Origin: a virus
DNA: 25,104 nt
Virus record (IMG/VR): IMGVR_UViG_3300043410_001535
Location: 1 to 25,104 of that record
Strand: one strand, 5' to 3'
Part shown: positions 3,475 to 20,055 of the stretch, piece after piece
How the letters are laid out: every line of letters begins with the position of its first letter
Position numbering within the stretch: position 1 is the first letter of the stretch
The notes under the pieces: model-generated
Told to the model about the DNA's origin: nothing
The model's database searches: none
The model's input: the letters and a program-made list of their open reading frames with translations, nothing else
Made by a program: the position numbers and the translations under genes

Positions 3475-3496
3475 CTCATCCTCCGATGATTCCTTA

Positions 3497-3526
3497 TAGC
3501 TACGATGATTTGGGGAAGGCGGTCAA
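3497..3526 (-). promoter_or_regulatory. Candidate leftward early promoter
   Basis: On the minus strand a TTGACC -35 box (3526-3521) is followed after 18 bp by TAGCTA (3502-3497). It lies 23 bp upstream of the Gp157 start and its strong GGAGG site. The -10 box is imperfect. Position in the divergent gap between the leftward operon and the Cro-like gene makes it the natural place for the early promoter. Confidence 0.4.
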
Positions 3527-3568
3527 GCGCAGTATTTACAAATCACACAGGTTCTATATGATGTGCTC

Positions 3569-3763
3569 ATGAAACGTGATCCAATCCTTACTGAGGTGTT
3601 TGCCGCATATGGCAGCGCCTCCTCGCTTTCCCGGACACTTGGCATCTCGCGTCAATGCGTCGGCCAATGGAAACGGATTCCTCTGAAATATGTGCGCGAT
3701 GTCGCCAAGCGCACTGGGATATCTCCGGATCGATTGAGGCCAGACGTCTATGCCGAAATCTAA
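3569..3763 (+). CDS. Cro/YdaS-like repressor
   Basis: A 64-aa helix-turn-helix protein. GSASSLSRTLGISRQCVGQW (about 15-34) is the HTH and the C-terminus ISPDRLRPDVYAEI matches the Cro/YdaS type, where LRPDxY is characteristic. These proteins bind operators in the divergent control region and decide between lytic and repressed states. I prefer ATG 3569 over GTG 3563. Neither has a Shine-Dalgarno, and a TATATG box ends only nine bases before the ATG, so a leaderless message is possible. It is divergent to the recombination operon. No large CI-type repressor is seen in this window. Confidence 0.75.
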   Translation: MKRDPILTEVFAAYGSASSLSRTLGISRQCVGQWKRIPLKYVRDVAKRTGISPDRLRPDVYAEI

Positions 3764-4268: not shown

Positions 4269-4550
4269 ATGAACGATATCGGCGATAATCATACCAAGGA
4301 TCTGATCCGCATCATCGAACGCATTGAGCGGCTTGAGGAAGAAAAGAAGCAGCTATCTGCTGACATCGGCGACATCTACAAGGAATCTAAAGGTCGCGGT
4401 TATGATGCCGCTGCACTGAAGGAAATCATCAAAATCCGCCGCGAAGATCCCAGCAAGCGCGAGGCTCGCGAGACAATGGTAGATGTCTACATGCGGGCGA
4501 TCAGTGGTTGGGAAACCACTCCGCTTGGGAAAACTTCTCAAGCCGACTGA
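4269..4550 (+). CDS. GapR-like nucleoid-associated protein (DUF2312)
   Basis: A 93-aa protein from ATG 4269, three bases past the RusA stop. It opens with DLIRIIERIERLEEEKKQLS, then ADIGDIYKESKGRGYDAAAL and KEIIKIRREDPSKREA, the characteristic DUF2312/GapR pattern: an N-terminal coiled coil followed by a basic helical segment. In Caulobacter, GapR forms a tetramer that clamps overtwisted DNA ahead of replication and transcription and stimulates topoisomerases. The family is essentially alphaproteobacterial, so this gene is one of the best pointers to the host. A DnaA box and promoter follow immediately. Confidence 0.85.
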   Translation: MNDIGDNHTKDLIRIIERIERLEEEKKQLSADIGDIYKESKGRGYDAAALKEIIKIRREDPSKREARETMVDVYMRAISGWETTPLGKTSQAD

Positions 4551-4556
4551 AAATAA

Positions 4557-4565
4557 TTATCCACA
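4557..4565 (+). promoter_or_regulatory. Perfect consensus DnaA box (TTATCCACA)
   Basis: A 9/9 match to the bacterial DnaA box lies seven bases after the GapR-like stop and just upstream of the operator/promoter at 4571-4609. A second perfect box lies at 9128-9136 on the other strand. Candidate readers are host DnaA or the phage DnaA domain IV-like protein at 8302-8856. Confidence 0.7.
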
Positions 4566-4570
4566 GGGGG

Positions 4571-4609
4571 GCATGACGAGTTGACATGCTCCCCGATTTG
4601 GGACTATCT
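4571..4609 (+). promoter_or_regulatory. Promoter with palindromic operator, module 1
   Basis: TTGACA (4581-4586), 17 bp, CTATCT (4604-4609) forms a strong sigma70-type promoter. The -35 lies inside an inverted repeat, GGCATG and CATGCTCC arms around ACGAGTTGA. The 23 bases 4571-4593 are identical to 4953-4975 in module 2. A regulator binding the repeat would cover the -35 box. Confidence 0.7.
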
Positions 4610-4618
4610 TCTGTTCAT

Positions 4619-4634
4619 GGGGTTGGATTACCCC
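4619..4634 (+). other. Leader RNA hairpin, module 1
   Basis: GGGGT (4619-4623), loop TGGATT, ACCCC (4630-4634). The predicted transcription start is near 4616, so the hairpin would be at the 5' end of the message, eight bases before AGGAG. Confidence 0.55.
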
Positions 4635-4652
4635 GCAACACAGGAGATGGAT

Positions 4653-4940
4653 ATGTCCAACATTGCTTCCCTCGCTGACCGCTACGCTGACATCAAGGCT
4701 GAGATCGAAGGTCTGAATCTTCTTCTTGAAGAGGTTCGCACAGAGATATTGAAGACCGGCTACGCTGAACTGGTCGGCACCCGCTCCATCGTCAATGTTT
4801 CGATGTCTGAGCCCAACCGCTTCGACTCTGCCGCCGCTAAGAAGCTGCTCACCGAAGAGCAGATCGCGGCCTGCACCAAGCGCGGCAAACTTCAGTATGC
4901 TCTGACCATCAAGGGCGTGAAGGCCCCGGTTTTTGCCTAA
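4653..4940 (+). CDS. Hypothetical phage protein, 95 aa
   Basis: ATG 4653 is chosen because AGGAG (4642-4646) is six bases upstream; an ATG at 4647 would touch it. The protein begins with a coiled-coil-like helix (LADRYADIKAEIEGLNLLLE) and continues into a small domain with VSMSEPNRFDSAAAKKLL and a TEEQIAACTK helix. The arrangement, a helix plus small mixed domain, recalls the C-terminal part of Gp157-type proteins, but this is only a loose likeness. It stands alone behind its own promoter, which is a near copy of that of the next gene. Confidence 0.75.
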   Translation: MSNIASLADRYADIKAEIEGLNLLLEEVRTEILKTGYAELVGTRSIVNVSMSEPNRFDSAAAKKLLTEEQIAACTKRGKLQYALTIKGVKAPVFA

Positions 4941-4946
4941 TAAATA

Positions 4947-4991
4947 TCGGGAGCATGACGAGTTGACATGCTCCCGAATCATCTGTAGGAT
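4947..4991 (+). promoter_or_regulatory. Promoter with palindromic operator, module 2
   Basis: An 11-bp perfect inverted repeat, TCGGGAGCATG (4947-4957) and CATGCTCCCGA (4967-4977) around ACGAGTTGA, contains the -35 TTGACA (4963-4968). TAGGAT (4986-4991) follows after 17 bp. The central 23 bases match module 1 exactly. Confidence 0.75.
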
Positions 4992-4999
4992 ACATTCAT

Positions 5000-5013
5000 G
5001 GGTTGGATAACCC
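5000..5013 (+). other. Leader RNA hairpin, module 2
   Basis: GGGTT, tetraloop GGAT, AACCC. Like module 1 it follows a shared TTCATGGG sequence and sits near the expected 5' end of the transcript, about ten bases before AGGAG. Confidence 0.55.
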
Positions 5014-5034
5014 GGCACTAACAGGAGCAAAACA

Positions 5035-5265
5035 ATGGCTTTCAACGTGAACCTCAAGGAATATGGCGACTGCACCTTCGATAACCTTTATGAGGCTTTC
5101 GAGATGTCTTCCTCGATCTATGACCGTAAACCTACCGACCAAGACATTTATGACCTCATTGATCTTTCACACAAGCTTTACAACCGTCTGCCTCTTTCCC
5201 TCACCGGCAAGCAGATCGACGATGTTGTTCATCGCATCCTTCATCCCGAAAATTACGAGGATTAA
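5035..5265 (+). CDS. Hypothetical protein, 76 aa
   Basis: Has AGGAG eight bases before ATG 5035 and is driven by the module 2 promoter. The protein is acidic and mostly helical, with many Asp and Tyr (YEAFEMSSSIYDRKPTDQD, then IYDLIDLSHKLYNRLPLSLT). It ends in HPENYED. I recognise no family; there is no cysteine motif or membrane segment. Small acidic early phage proteins of this type often inhibit host enzymes, but nothing here shows a target. Confidence 0.7.
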   Translation: MAFNVNLKEYGDCTFDNLYEAFEMSSSIYDRKPTDQDIYDLIDLSHKLYNRLPLSLTGKQIDDVVHRILHPENYED

Positions 5266-5304: not shown

Positions 5305-5655
5305 ATGAAAATCATCGTCACCTATGATCCGCCTGCCGTTCCCTCTAACTGCTTTGATTGGTGCGCTGTTGATGACAGCACCTACGGCGGCGAACCCAGT
5401 GATCCGATTGGGTATGGCCCAACTCGCGAGGCTGCAATTCTTGAACTGATCAATCAATTTGCTGATGATCTGTTTCCGGAAATTCCTAGCACTGACCTGT
5501 GCAGCACAATCAACCCGGCGCTCTGGTCAGCGTTCTGCACCCTCAAAATGCGTCCGCAAGAGCCGTCTAATGTCTGGACGGAATCCGATGTCATGCAGTC
5601 CATTGATCAGATGTATGAGGCTTTCTTCAATGCCCGCACAGCAGCCCCTGTCTAA
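5305..5655 (+). CDS. Conserved phage protein, 116 aa
   Basis: AGGAG is seven bases before ATG 5305. The N-terminus (VTYDPPAVPSNCFDWCAVDD, then STYGGEPSDPIGYG) resembles a small domain found in many phage proteins, where a YDPPP...FDW...D motif is followed by a Gly-rich IGYGPT turn and a helix (REAAILELINQF). The second half (WSAFCTLKMR, ESDVMQSIDQMYEAFFNA) seems to be an added helical region. The role is unknown. It is the last gene that clearly follows the two operator modules, and its end overlaps the next HTH gene by 26 nt. Confidence 0.7.
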   Translation: MKIIVTYDPPAVPSNCFDWCAVDDSTYGGEPSDPIGYGPTREAAILELINQFADDLFPEIPSTDLCSTINPALWSAFCTLKMRPQEPSNVWTESDVMQSIDQMYEAFFNARTAAPV

Positions 5656-5839
5656 TCGAGAGATCCTCAATGGGCTTCTCTGGCAGCTTAATCTTGTTAA
5701 TGTTGAGGCCGCTGAATTGTGCGGAGTCAGCGAGCGGACAATCTATCGTTGGCTGTCAGGAGATTCCAAAGTTCCGCCCGGCATTATCAAAATGCTTCAG
5801 ATGACTTTGGACTTGCGGAAGCGCGACACAAAGGCGTAA
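5630..5839 (+). CDS. HTH regulator, 69 aa
   Basis: ATG 5630 has GAGG nine bases upstream and lies inside the previous gene. Residues about 18-45 (QLNLVNVEAAELCGVSERTI and YRWLSGDSKVP) form a clear helix-turn-helix of the XRE/Cro style, with the recognition helix SERTIYRWL. A helix follows (GIIKMLQMTLDLRKRD). It is a likely DNA-binding regulator of the early or replication genes. It is followed by a strong hairpin at 5852-5883, so this looks like the end of a transcription unit. Confidence 0.7.
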   Translation: MPAQQPLSNREILNGLLWQLNLVNVEAAELCGVSERTIYRWLSGDSKVPPGIIKMLQMTLDLRKRDTKA

Positions 5840-8143: not shown

Positions 8144-8305
8144 ATGCCCACGGAGCTTCTAATCGCGATTGTGCTATTCGGCGTCATTCCGATGGGACTG
8201 ATGCTTGCCGCTGCGGTCATGGCTTATTGGTGGCCACCGCAGAACGATCCATACACCGACCCCGCCAACTGGGGATCTCAAGATGTCGATGGGAGAAAAG
8301 AATGA
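8144..8305 (+). CDS. Small single-pass membrane protein, 53 aa
   Basis: ATG 8144 has GGAG six bases upstream. Residues 4-28 form one strong membrane helix (ELLIAIVLFGVIPMGLMLAA, then AVMAYWW), followed by a polar tail rich in Pro, Asp and Asn (PPQNDPYTDPANWGSQDVDG). No signal-peptidase site is obvious, so it is probably anchored with the tail in the cytoplasm or periplasm. Its stop overlaps the DnaA-like start (ATGA), so the two are likely co-translated. The role is unknown; superinfection exclusion and membrane tethering of replication are both possible but unsupported. Confidence 0.7.
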   Translation: MPTELLIAIVLFGVIPMGLMLAAAVMAYWWPPQNDPYTDPANWGSQDVDGRKE

Positions 8306-8856
8306 TTGCCAAGTTTAACTCTGCAGAAGATCTGCTTGCTCACTACGCGACCGTCCGCGCCCGCATAGGCGCCCCAACTAAGGGGCCAACAATCAACTGG
8401 CAAGCGATGCAGGTCAAAAAAAAGAAAGAGAAGGTGGCCGAAGTGAAGGAAAAGCCCGCACCCGTTATCGCCCAGCCTGTGGTTCGCATGCCAGCGGTTC
8501 CAATTAACCCAAACGATGTCCGCATTACGTTTGAAGAGGTGGTTTCTCTGGTCTGTTTGCGTACCGGATACCATCGTCGGGAAATCTTTGCGCCTCGCCG
8601 CAAACAGGATCTTTGCTTCAGCCGTCAGCTCGCTTGGGCATTAGCTCGCAAGTTTTGCAATCACATGAGCCTGCCTCAGATAGGCCGAGCATCAGGCGGT
8701 AAAGATCACACTACGATTCTTCACGGCTGCAAAAAGGGGGTCAAACATCCTGCTTATCAGATCCTCAATGATGAGTTGGAGGAAATGTACAATCAGAAAT
8801 TCGCCGCAAATTTGGCGCTGATCGAGCAAGCCGAATTGGAAAAAGAGGGGGTTTGA
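8302..8856 (+). CDS. DnaA domain IV-like DNA-binding protein
   Basis: From ATG 8302 (GGGAG upstream, overlapping the membrane-protein stop), 184 aa. Residues 75-150 match DnaA domain IV: RREIFAPRRKQDLCFSRQLA, a WALARKFCNHMSLPQIGRA helix, and the signature GGKDHTTILHGCKK (132-145), which in DnaA contacts the TTATCCACA box. There is no AAA+ domain; the N-terminal 70 residues are a Lys/Glu/Pro-rich linker. It may therefore occupy DnaA boxes without DnaA's ATPase activity, acting as a competitor, repressor or initiator aid. Two perfect boxes exist in this window. A GC hairpin follows the stop. Confidence 0.85.
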   Translation: MIAKFNSAEDLLAHYATVRARIGAPTKGPTINWQAMQVKKKKEKVAEVKEKPAPVIAQPVVRMPAVPINPNDVRITFEEVVSLVCLRTGYHRREIFAPRRKQDLCFSRQLAWALARKFCNHMSLPQIGRASGGKDHTTILHGCKKGVKHPAYQILNDELEEMYNQKFAANLALIEQAELEKEGV

Positions 8857-8864
8857 GCCCCCTC
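8845..8864 (-). terminator. GC hairpin, likely bidirectional terminator
   Basis: GAGGGGG (8845-8851), loop TTTGAG, CCCCCTC (8858-8864). On the minus strand the stem is followed by TTTTT, giving a good intrinsic terminator for the small leftward gene at 8891-9085. In the plus direction the downstream sequence is AT-rich but lacks a T run. It separates two convergent genes. Confidence 0.7.
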
Positions 8865-8890
8865 ATAATTCGCCAAATAAATCGCCGCGA

Positions 8891-9085
8891 TTAAATCCGT
8901 TGGCGATTTTTCCCAAGGCCAGCGTAGGCATTCATCTCGGCCATCGCTGCGGCAACAGCCGGATCTTCTGAATACCGCTCTCGGAGCACTGGGGGCGTTC
9001 GCACCGCAGGCTGCGGGCGTTCTACAGGCTTCAGCTTCGATCCAATGGCCTGAAGCATAGCTGGTGGGATTCGATTGATCTGCAT
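8891..9085 (-). CDS. Small hypothetical protein, 64 aa, minus strand
   Basis: The only minus-strand gene right of 3475. ATG 9085 has GGAG seven bases upstream; an in-frame ATG at 9097 is less well placed. The protein is Pro/Ala-rich with a basic beginning (NRIPPAMLQAIGSKLKPVER) and the helix SEDPAVAAAMAEMNAYAGLG. A terminator hairpin with a T run follows its stop, which supports a separate transcript. The upstream region contains a perfect DnaA box. I do not recognise it; the size and orientation suggest an antagonist or regulator of the flanking units. Confidence 0.55.
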   Translation of the reverse strand: MQINRIPPAMLQAIGSKLKPVERPQPAVRTPPVLRERYSEDPAVAAAMAEMNAYAGLGKNRQRI

Positions 9086-9127
9086 GGCTGTCTCCATGGG
9101 GTCATATCTTGTAGCACGAAACGCGAT

Positions 9128-9136
9128 TGTGGATAA
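9128..9136 (-). promoter_or_regulatory. Perfect consensus DnaA box
   Basis: TGTGGATAA on the plus strand, that is TTATCCACA on the minus strand. It lies between the small leftward gene and the rightward leader at 9167-9246. This is the second 9/9 match, and I saw no other. A one-mismatch relative (TGATCCACA) lies at 6909-6917. Confidence 0.7.
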
Positions 9137-9166
9137 CTTTTTCTGGGGGAAAGTGTAAACAAATCC

Positions 9167-9246
9167 TTTTACGAAGCGTTTGGTGTGATACTCTAAGTTG
9201 CTGATTTTGCAGCAAAAGCCGGTTGCGGGGCCGGTGAACAACCCCG
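9167..9246 (+). promoter_or_regulatory. Candidate promoter and structured leader
   Basis: TTTTAC (9167-9172), 16 bp, TACTCT (9189-9194) is a weak promoter candidate. It is followed by hairpin TTGCTG/CAGCAA (9198-9215), then two mutually exclusive pairings: GGTTG/CAACC (9221-9243) or CGGGG/CCCCG (9226-9246). AGGAG follows just after. The CCCCG-then-AGGAG layout recalls the leaders of modules 1 and 2. Confidence 0.35.
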
Positions 9247-9259
9247 TTAGGAGAAGACC

Positions 9260-10235: not shown

Positions 10236-11378
10236 ATGGAATACGATATACACGAGCTTTGCAGTCTGTTTCCGTTGATGCCGCAGGACCAGTTCGATGC
10301 ACTGGCTGACGACATGCGCGCCAATGGGCAGCGAAACCCGATCACGCTTTACGAGGGCAAGATCCTCGATGGCCGTCACCGCTACAAGGCTTGCATCAAT
10401 CTCGGGCTGGAGCCACTGATTACGCACTTCGAGGGTGAAGACGCCCTTGGCTTCGTGATCAGTCATAACCTGACGCGCAGGCATCTGGACGAATCGCAGA
10501 GGGCTATGATCGCTGCCAAGCTTGCCAACTTGAAGGACGGTCAGCGGAAATCTTCAGGTGCATCAATTGGAGCACCTCGCACGGAAGTCAGTCAGATAGA
10601 CGCCGCCAACAAGATGGGCGTTGGCCGCATGTCAGTGCAGAGAGCCAAGAAAGTTTTGGACAAGGGGACGCCGGAACTGGCTCAAGCTGTTGAGTCTGGG
10701 CAGATTGCTGTCTCGGTCGCCGCTAAGATCGCCGAGATGGAGCCAGAACAGCAGGCGCAAATTATCGCTGACCCTAAGCCTGAACAGGCTATCAAGAAGG
10801 TTGCTCGGCAGGAAAAAGAACAGGCGCTCGCAGACAGAACCATTCAGCAATCCTTGCAGGCGACAACCAAGCTGTATGGGGTGATCTACGCTGACCCGCC
10901 ATGGAAGTATGAGACGTTCTCTGAGAATGGGATGGACCGCAGCGCGGATAACCACTACCCCACTATGAGCATGTTCGACATGCTTGCTATGAGCATCCCT
11001 GCGGCAGACAACTGCGTGATGTTCATGTGGGCTACTGTCCCCATGCTCCCAGAAGCAATCGACCTTATGTCCACATGGGGCTTCGACTATAAGTCGCACA
11101 TCTGTTGGATCAAGGATCGCATTGGCACCGGCTACTGGACCCGTAACAAGCACGAGCTGCTACTGATCGGAACCAAGGGCAATGTCCCCGCTCCAGCCAT
11201 GGGCACCCAGCCGCCATCGGTCATCGAACTCCCTCTCGGTCGCCACAGCGAAAAGCCAGCATTCTTCGCGGATATGATCTCGACATTATACCCGACGACT
11301 CCCAAGTTGGAGATGTTCGCTCGCATTGGTCGTGTGGGCTGGGATGTCATGGGCAACGAGGCCCCAGACGATGACTGA
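10236..11378 (+). CDS. ParB-like domain fused to MT-A70 adenine methyltransferase
   Basis: A 380-aa protein with two domains. Residues 1-120 are ParB-like with D45-G-R-H-R49 (ILDGRHRYKACINLGL) and a downstream HTH-like part (DAANKMGVGRMSVQRAKKVL). Residues 210-375 are an MT-A70 type methylase: D220-PPW in VIYADPPWKYETF, the DPPW motif for N6-adenine methylation. SAM-fold elements follow (FMWATVPMLPEAIDLM, KHELLLIGTKG). The family modifies adenine in DNA and often occurs with ParB-like domains in phages, probably to protect the genome from restriction. GGGGG precedes the start. Its end overlaps the next gene by 8 nt. Confidence 0.92.
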   Translation: MEYDIHELCSLFPLMPQDQFDALADDMRANGQRNPITLYEGKILDGRHRYKACINLGLEPLITHFEGEDALGFVISHNLTRRHLDESQRAMIAAKLANLKDGQRKSSGASIGAPRTEVSQIDAANKMGVGRMSVQRAKKVLDKGTPELAQAVESGQIAVSVAAKIAEMEPEQQAQIIADPKPEQAIKKVARQEKEQALADRTIQQSLQATTKLYGVIYADPPWKYETFSENGMDRSADNHYPTMSMFDMLAMSIPAADNCVMFMWATVPMLPEAIDLMSTWGFDYKSHICWIKDRIGTGYWTRNKHELLLIGTKGNVPAPAMGTQPPSVIELPLGRHSEKPAFFADMISTLYPTTPKLEMFARIGRVGWDVMGNEAPDDD

Positions 11379-19788: not shown

Positions 19789-19866
19789 CGGAGTGTAGCG
19801 CAGTCTGGTCAGCGCATCTGGTTTGGGACCAGAGGGCCGCAGGTTCGAATCCTGCCACTCCGACCA
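19789..19866 (+). tRNA. tRNA-Pro (anticodon TGG)
   Basis: Acceptor stem CGGAGTG/CACTCCG, anticodon stem TCTGG/CCAGA with loop TTTGGGA, T arm with GGTTCGAATCC, discriminator A and encoded CCA. It would read CCA and, by wobble, other Pro codons. Confidence 0.97.
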
Positions 19867-19871
19867 ACAAT

Positions 19872-19946
19872 GCGGGTGTAGCTCAGTGGCAGAGCTTCTG
19901 CCTTCCAAGCAGAATGTCGCGGGTTCGAACCCCGCCGCCCGCTCCA
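19872..19946 (+). tRNA. tRNA-Gly (anticodon TCC)
   Basis: Acceptor GCGGGTG/CGCCCGC (one T-G pair), anticodon stem TCTGC/GCAGA with loop CTTCCAA, T arm GCGGG-TTCGAAC-CCCGC, discriminator T and encoded CCA. Reads GGA. Confidence 0.97.
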
Positions 19947-19981
19947 TTAAATTTAGTTGATCGACTGACGTTTTCTAACAG

Positions 19982-20055
19982 TCCCTTGTCGTCTAAAGGT
20001 AGGACACCGCACTTTGACTGCGTGAATCGTGGTTCGAATCCATGCGAGGGAACCA
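19982..20055 (+). tRNA. tRNA-Gln (anticodon TTG)
   Basis: Acceptor TCCCTTG/CGAGGGA (one T-G pair), anticodon loop CTTTGAC with a mostly paired stem (CCGCA/TGCGT, one mismatch), T loop GTTCGAATC, discriminator A and encoded CCA. Reads CAA. The weak first anticodon-stem pair is its only irregular point. Confidence 0.92.

Follow-up and report, generated by a model that had tools for sequence, protein, structure and literature searches.

Aca proteins, mostly of 60-65 aa, recognise inverted repeats that lie in the core promoter and bind to them (PMC9410906, PMC8434428). SO3848 is a relative of Aca2 (PMC8434428), and the structure of an Aca2-RNA complex has been solved (PMC11239489). Repeated regulatory sequences have also been described in other viruses: the consulted part of a report on the Bacillus phage SPbeta presents SPBRE as an element that recurs in several promoter regions and is bound by the repressor MrpR (PMC10516654), and the consulted part of a study of archaeal viruses describes consensus regulatory sequences of early genes that were used for finding anti-defence genes (PMC11065993). 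Here we describe a viral locus that we read as an early operon under autoregulation of the Aca type, with a cassette of promoter, operator and leader that has been copied and for which repression is predicted, a reading that we judge to be slightly on the probable side.

The window, meaning the whole stretch of 25,104 nucleotides that was analysed, is a 25-kb viral contig encoding terminase and portal proteins, with three tRNA genes (Pro, Gly and Gln, 19789-20055) between the terminase and portal genes. The nearest match of its terminase is an uncultured Caudoviricetes record (49%), and the nearest cultured phages are those of Roseobacter and Paracoccus (36-39%). It also encodes a GapR-like protein of a type typical of alphaproteobacteria, and the virus probably infects alphaproteobacterial hosts. 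One protein with ParB-like and DNA methyltransferase parts is encoded at 10236-11378.

A cassette pattern search over viral contigs returned six contigs, and a search with the gene 1 protein added one more (L014), so that the window and these seven related viral contigs, all scanned whole, hold 17 cassette sites. In five of these seven, two copies occupy the same two loci as in the window (Table 1), and a third cassette site stands before other genes in L005 and L014; the L008 contig ends shortly past the first, gapR-proximal site. The gapR-proximal site of L006 precedes an ArdC antirestriction gene (ArdcN, 1.5e-32), and its second site precedes a distant gene 1 relative. In all standard copies the start codon lies 80-83 nt from the core start. 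In the scan of whole contigs, high scores were confined to the cassette sites: in the window the two sites scored 33.5 each and about 15 on the reverse strand, and no further place in it scored above 12.4. Searches with blastn and with gene 1 against 50,697 phage records gave no match, and the three matches of a leader-pattern genome scan, in Bacteroidota and Hydrogenedentota MAGs, had the wrong spacing and were taken as chance. The cassette is thus retained, whereas the downstream genes differ between genomes. The preliminary description had called it a portable promoter and leader cassette, and this view held: a few unrelated genes share it, and it is kept in all seven related contigs.

Table 1. 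Positions of the cassette elements and neighbouring genes in the window
Feature	Position	Strand	Description
GapR-like DNA-binding protein gene	4269-4550	+	directly upstream of copy 1
Exact DnaA box TTATCCACA	4557-4565	+	upstream of copy 1
First locus			behind gapR, before gene 1; same position as window copy 1
Copy 1 extended palindrome	4566-4594	+	outer arms GGGGGG/CTCCCC around core CATGACGAGTTGACATG (4572-4588)
Promoter 1	4581-4610	+	TTGACA 4581-4586, 18 bp, TATCTT 4605-4610; inferred start near 4617
Leader hairpin 1	4619-4634	+	GGGGT-TGGATT-ACCCC, RNA 5' end
Shine-Dalgarno AGGAG, gene 1	4642-4646	+	
Gene 1	4653-4940	+	95 aa, 38 related viral loci
Second locus			behind gene 1, before small gene; same position as window copy 2
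Copy 2 extended palindrome	4947-4977	+	11-bp arms flanking core 4954-4970
Promoter 2	4963-4991	+	TTGACA 4963-4968, 17 bp, TAGGAT 4986-4991; predicted start near 4998
Leader hairpin 2	5000-5013	+	GGGTT-GGAT-AACCC, RNA 5' end
Shine-Dalgarno AGGAG, gene 2	5023-5027	+	
Gene 2	5035-5265	+	76 aa, variable slot
Gene 3	5305-5655	+	116 aa, conserved
HTH protein gene	5630-5839	+	69 aa, Aca1/Aca2-like, proposed autoregulator

Genes 1-3 matched no Pfam, PHROG, NCBIfam or PADLOC family; no known anti-CRISPR was found among the phage's genes. Gene 1, which most likely starts at 4653 with MSN as in its relatives, has a predicted shape of a long N-terminal helix followed by a small alpha/beta part. Comparison of genes 1 and 2 agreed with the earlier statement that the two are not similar. 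The gene 2 slot holds four mutually unrelated proteins across six genomes, and no relative of gene 2 itself was found in the viral contigs searched. The phage GapR-like gene immediately precedes the cassette in all eight genomes. Distant gene 1 relatives (L020-L024, L027-L029, L032-L034, L036, L039-L041, L044 and L046) are preceded by other -35-spanning palindromes (TGTAGCG..CGCTACA, TGTCGCG..CGCGACA) and by a different leader hairpin, AAGGCAAT..GCCG, so that the layout is the same and the sequences are other.

The two copies share an exact 23-bp stretch (4571-4593 and 4953-4975), whereas by our own arithmetic a random sequence of 25 kb would contain about 5e-6 such exact 23-mer pairs, and this lies within a longer repeat of 27 bp at 96% (4567-4593 and 4949-4975). 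Both copies carry TTGACA inside the palindrome, and the 11-bp arms of copy 2 (4947-4957 and 4967-4977) are perfect, all as previously proposed; the arms of copy 1 are 10 bp with one G-T. The statement that a -10 box follows after 17 bp stands for copy 2 and not for copy 1, in which that spacing gives CTATCT and the box that aligns best with the relatives is TATCTT at 18 bp. TTGACA and a TAnnnT-like -10 box 16-18 bp apart, as in sigma70 promoters, occur in nearly all 17 sites, with the inverted repeat inside the -35/-10 core promoter. The -10 words include TATCTT, TAGGAT, TATTGT, TAATGT, TATGGT, TACAAT and others with variable flanking bases, and two sites have a weak box (CACTGT and TAAACA).

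The palindrome is made up of a 17-bp core, CATG-N5-TTGACATG, and of outer arms. The core is almost constant inside one genome and differs among genomes: N5 reads ACGAG in both window copies, CAGAG in three sites of L005 and two of L009, and ACAGG in both sites of L007. Outside it, at least 5 bases to the left are paired with as many to the right. This pairing is considerably better within a site than between sites (mean fold energy -18.5 versus -14.1 kcal/mol), and the difference was reached by none of 100,000 permutations, a figure that overstates the strength because related sites are counted as independent; the within-class ranks were 2 of 720 and 12 of 720. In an alignment of the palindrome helix, 4-5 pairs are altered on both sides, and the covariation score was reached by 0 of 500 shuffles. 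The outer arms thus pair within each site, whereas a genome's two sites carry different arms, as in L004 (GGGCGG versus CGGGGAG), so that conservation concerns their ability to fold back and not their sequence. Three sites (L5.3, L6.1 and L14.3) have the core without arms. The 9-9-9 palindrome that the preliminary description proposed to seek in relatives therefore survives in part, with the 17-bp core kept in seven contigs, the fixed word not conserved and the arms covarying. A cruciform or single-strand promoter of the N4 or Frpo type was rejected, as the -10 box lies outside the arms and arm-less sites exist.

Arms that differ between the sites of one genome are not needed by a simple repressor, and they count against the autorepressor reading. 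They would be accommodated if the locus had no dedicated repressor, with a strong constitutive early promoter, a palindrome that folds into an RNA hairpin when transcription reads through it (serving the upstream gene in 3'-end formation, in processing or as an insulator) and a leader that stabilises the mRNA 5' end. The covariation of the arms agrees with this explanation, as do the mismatches on the + strand (5 G-T and 0 A-C, as expected of RNA), the full pairing beyond one bulged A predicted for an armed site in each of L005, L006, L008 and L009, and the position of most armed sites close behind a stop codon. However, the palindrome is followed by GATTCGG or GAATCAT with no U tract, unlike an intrinsic terminator, and L6.1 lacks outer arms although it lies about 24 nt behind gapR. 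Within genomes, moreover, the core is kept together with its N5, arm-less sites included, which RNA pairing does not explain. We consider this explanation unlikely. The outer arms are a separate feature of foldback type that possibly acts in RNA, and the core, rather than the arms, is the likelier protein site.

One regulator likely serves all cassettes, and the HTH protein at 5630-5839 is the best candidate. Its gene is the last of the operon, on the same strand as genes 2 and 3 and with a 26-nt overlap with gene 3. In the window, as in each of the four relatives with a contig long enough to include the whole gene, it is found downstream of the cassettes. As in acr-aca operons, the HTH gene thus lies downstream in the same operon, with presumed co-transcription and with a gene order that recurs in the relatives extending this far. 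The family profile matched the solved structures of Aca1 of JBD30 (9e-5) and Aca2 (0.007), with other HTH proteins nearly equal. An AlphaFold model (mean pLDDT 81) superposed on Aca2 with a Z score of 9.1 and 1.4 A over 62 residues and also matched Aca10 and SO3848. The match (Z about 9, Foldseek E 0.01) covers an arrangement common among HTH proteins that can by itself yield such scores, so the Aca likeness is a lead and not a proof.

Gene context in two further contigs, L083 and L084, is a stronger lead to this protein than its profile or fold. There the order is ArdC, promoter, gene-1-like gene, two small genes and a relative of the HTH protein. The promoter again has its -35 box in a palindrome loop, but the arms are different (TTGCAGCCG-CTTGA-CGGCTGCAA), and the HTH relatives, encoded about 1 kb behind it, have a changed recognition helix. 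The core types point in the same direction. L005 and L009 share the CAGAG core, and their HTH proteins are the closest (71%); their RusA proteins are also 96% identical. This suggests, in few genomes with partly shared ancestry, that the core type goes with the HTH protein and not with the Cro/YdaS-like protein encoded at 3563-3763.

That second protein, also named as a candidate by the preliminary description, could replace the HTH protein as regulator with the operator scheme otherwise unchanged. All eight genomes encode it a short way upstream of the locus, and it matches the YdaS and P22 Cro models. Its own promoter region nevertheless lacks the core and holds a different conserved word, and its recognition helix hardly varies among L004, L007, L008 and L009, in which the core types differ; L009 and L007 have Cro proteins that are 92% identical, but the L007 core differs and the L009 core is of the L005 type. 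We therefore regard the Cro-like protein as an improbable regulator of the cassettes. The word in its promoter region (3480-3572), TTGACTGnATCCACAGG, is conserved in most relatives and resembles the DnaA-box region of the cassette.

The sequence TTATCCACA itself occurs in nine exact copies in 159 kb of eight phages, where about one is expected, and eight of the nine lie within 40 bp upstream of a cassette. It is found at the gapR-proximal site in 7 of 8 genomes and also accompanies the third L005 site. The distance to the core is mostly -15, -25 or -35, which puts these boxes on one helix face. A second exact box of the window (9128-9136, minus strand) lies in the gap at 8857-9259, where the position seems homologous to that of the third L005 site although the core itself is missing. 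The neighbouring gene (8305-8856) encodes a DnaA C-terminal, domain IV-like (box-binding) domain without an AAA+ match, and the protein is conserved in L005, L009 and L014. The main control might thus lie with DnaA, if host DnaA or this phage protein activated or repressed promoter 1 and coupled the early genes to replication, for which the near restriction of exact boxes to cassettes, their spacing and the phage-encoded domain can be cited. The box is, however, missing from copy 2 and from all of L014, and it explains neither the core nor the leader, making DnaA a doubtful main control. A replication origin, considered for the DnaA box and the GapR-like gene, was rejected, as the boxes are single and promoter geometry is present at every site, which points to transcription.

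The short GGG-TT-GGAT-type hairpin reported ahead of AGGAG was recovered in both copies, and the predicted transcript begins at or beside its stem, GGGGU-UGGAUU-ACCCC. In copy 2 one G is missing from the stem, a U-U pair has become U-A, and an alternative fold has near-equal energy. The leader stem is 100% paired at 14 sites, with one GC pair, the outer one, exchanged to C-G in one copy each of L007 and L014; as only one of five pairs varies, compensatory changes lend modest support to a 5'-end RNA hairpin conserved across relatives. The loop is kept better than the stem, with GGAY inside it at 16 of 17 sites (L6.1 being the exception), including the third sites of L005 and L014, where the stem is unrelated and the loop is still GGAU; in shuffled leaders a GGAY loop arises in about 3.6% each. 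Rfam gave no leader match above the gathering score and only the three tRNAs in the window. A leader peptide read from the predicted 5' end, MGLDYP, is not conserved, and its frame is shifted by the G missing in copy 2 while the stem is kept, so that a leader peptide is rejected. The 3' end of 16S rRNA is GGYTGGATCACC, and the likeness of the leader (GGTTGGATTACC) to it is probably chance, given that GGAY alone survives in variant sites. A CsrA-type translational control site for host CsrA, made of the GGA loop and the Shine-Dalgarno GGAG, would fit the conserved loop but is very unlikely, as the loops read UGGAUU, UGGACU or GGAU in place of A-N-GGA and no csrA was found in the phage contigs examined.

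Aca2 also represses translation through leader stem-loops, and RNA-level control by the HTH protein is possible because the Aca2-RNA complex has been solved. One domain might thus control twice, at the -35 core on DNA and at the GGAY leader hairpin of the mRNA, where its binding would keep ribosomes out, with new anti-defence genes picked up behind copied cassettes, an extension that we hold to be speculative and rather unlikely.

In the autoregulated operon that we favour, the cassette would be a mobile expression unit for early phage genes, combining a sigma70-type promoter whose -35 box lies within a palindromic operator with an RNA 5' end in which a small GGAY-loop stem is followed by the Shine-Dalgarno sequence at a fixed distance. 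The two copies would drive gene 1 and the stretch from gene 2 through gene 3 to the HTH gene, and host polymerase would be expected to fire both promoters together on entry. As the HTH protein accumulates, it would occupy the two cores and mask the -35 boxes, silencing its own operon together with all other cassette genes, and the leader hairpin may act as a second, RNA-level brake. Sequence comparison establishes the cassette with its conservation, its regular spacing and the covariation in both hairpins, as well as the place of the HTH gene in the operon and the Aca-like predicted fold of its product; promoter activity, HTH binding, the direction of control and the RNA-level brake we infer.

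If this is right, a small early regulon of a little-known phage group can be recognised by the cassette, which provides a sequence tag for new early, possibly anti-defence genes, one site already driving ArdC. It would also represent a minimal single-domain Aca-like system in which DNA and RNA control are separable. Should dual control by one domain be true, the cassette could serve to search phages of alphaproteobacteria for anti-defence genes.

Among known systems, 5'-terminal stem-loops of the ompA type stabilise bacterial mRNAs, and the leader resembles them in its short GC-rich stem at a fixed place at the predicted 5' end. It differs from them in that the GGAY loop persists even where the stem is altered, a constancy that stabilisation alone would not require. 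With SPbeta the locus shares a short element repeated in several promoter regions and, as proposed here, one phage regulator; MrpR is a recombinase-fold protein, though, SPBRE is an unrelated 15-bp element, and the consulted part of that report describes no leader hairpin. The archaeal viruses, as presented in the consulted part of that study, likewise have one regulatory sequence ahead of many unrelated small early genes, but their promoters are archaeal and the anti-defence link is validated there, whereas here it is conjectural. Like the acr-aca operons (acrIF1-aca1 of JBD30, acrIF8-aca2 of ZF40), the locus has small genes behind a strong predicted sigma70 promoter, a core promoter overlaid by an inverted repeat and, in last place, a single-HTH regulator that resembles Aca1 and Aca2 by profile and fold. 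Unlike them, it has no known acr gene and its HTH protein lacks the C-terminal dimerisation domain of Aca2, and it has a leader hairpin with GGAY, a DnaA box and a cassette present in 2-3 copies per genome.
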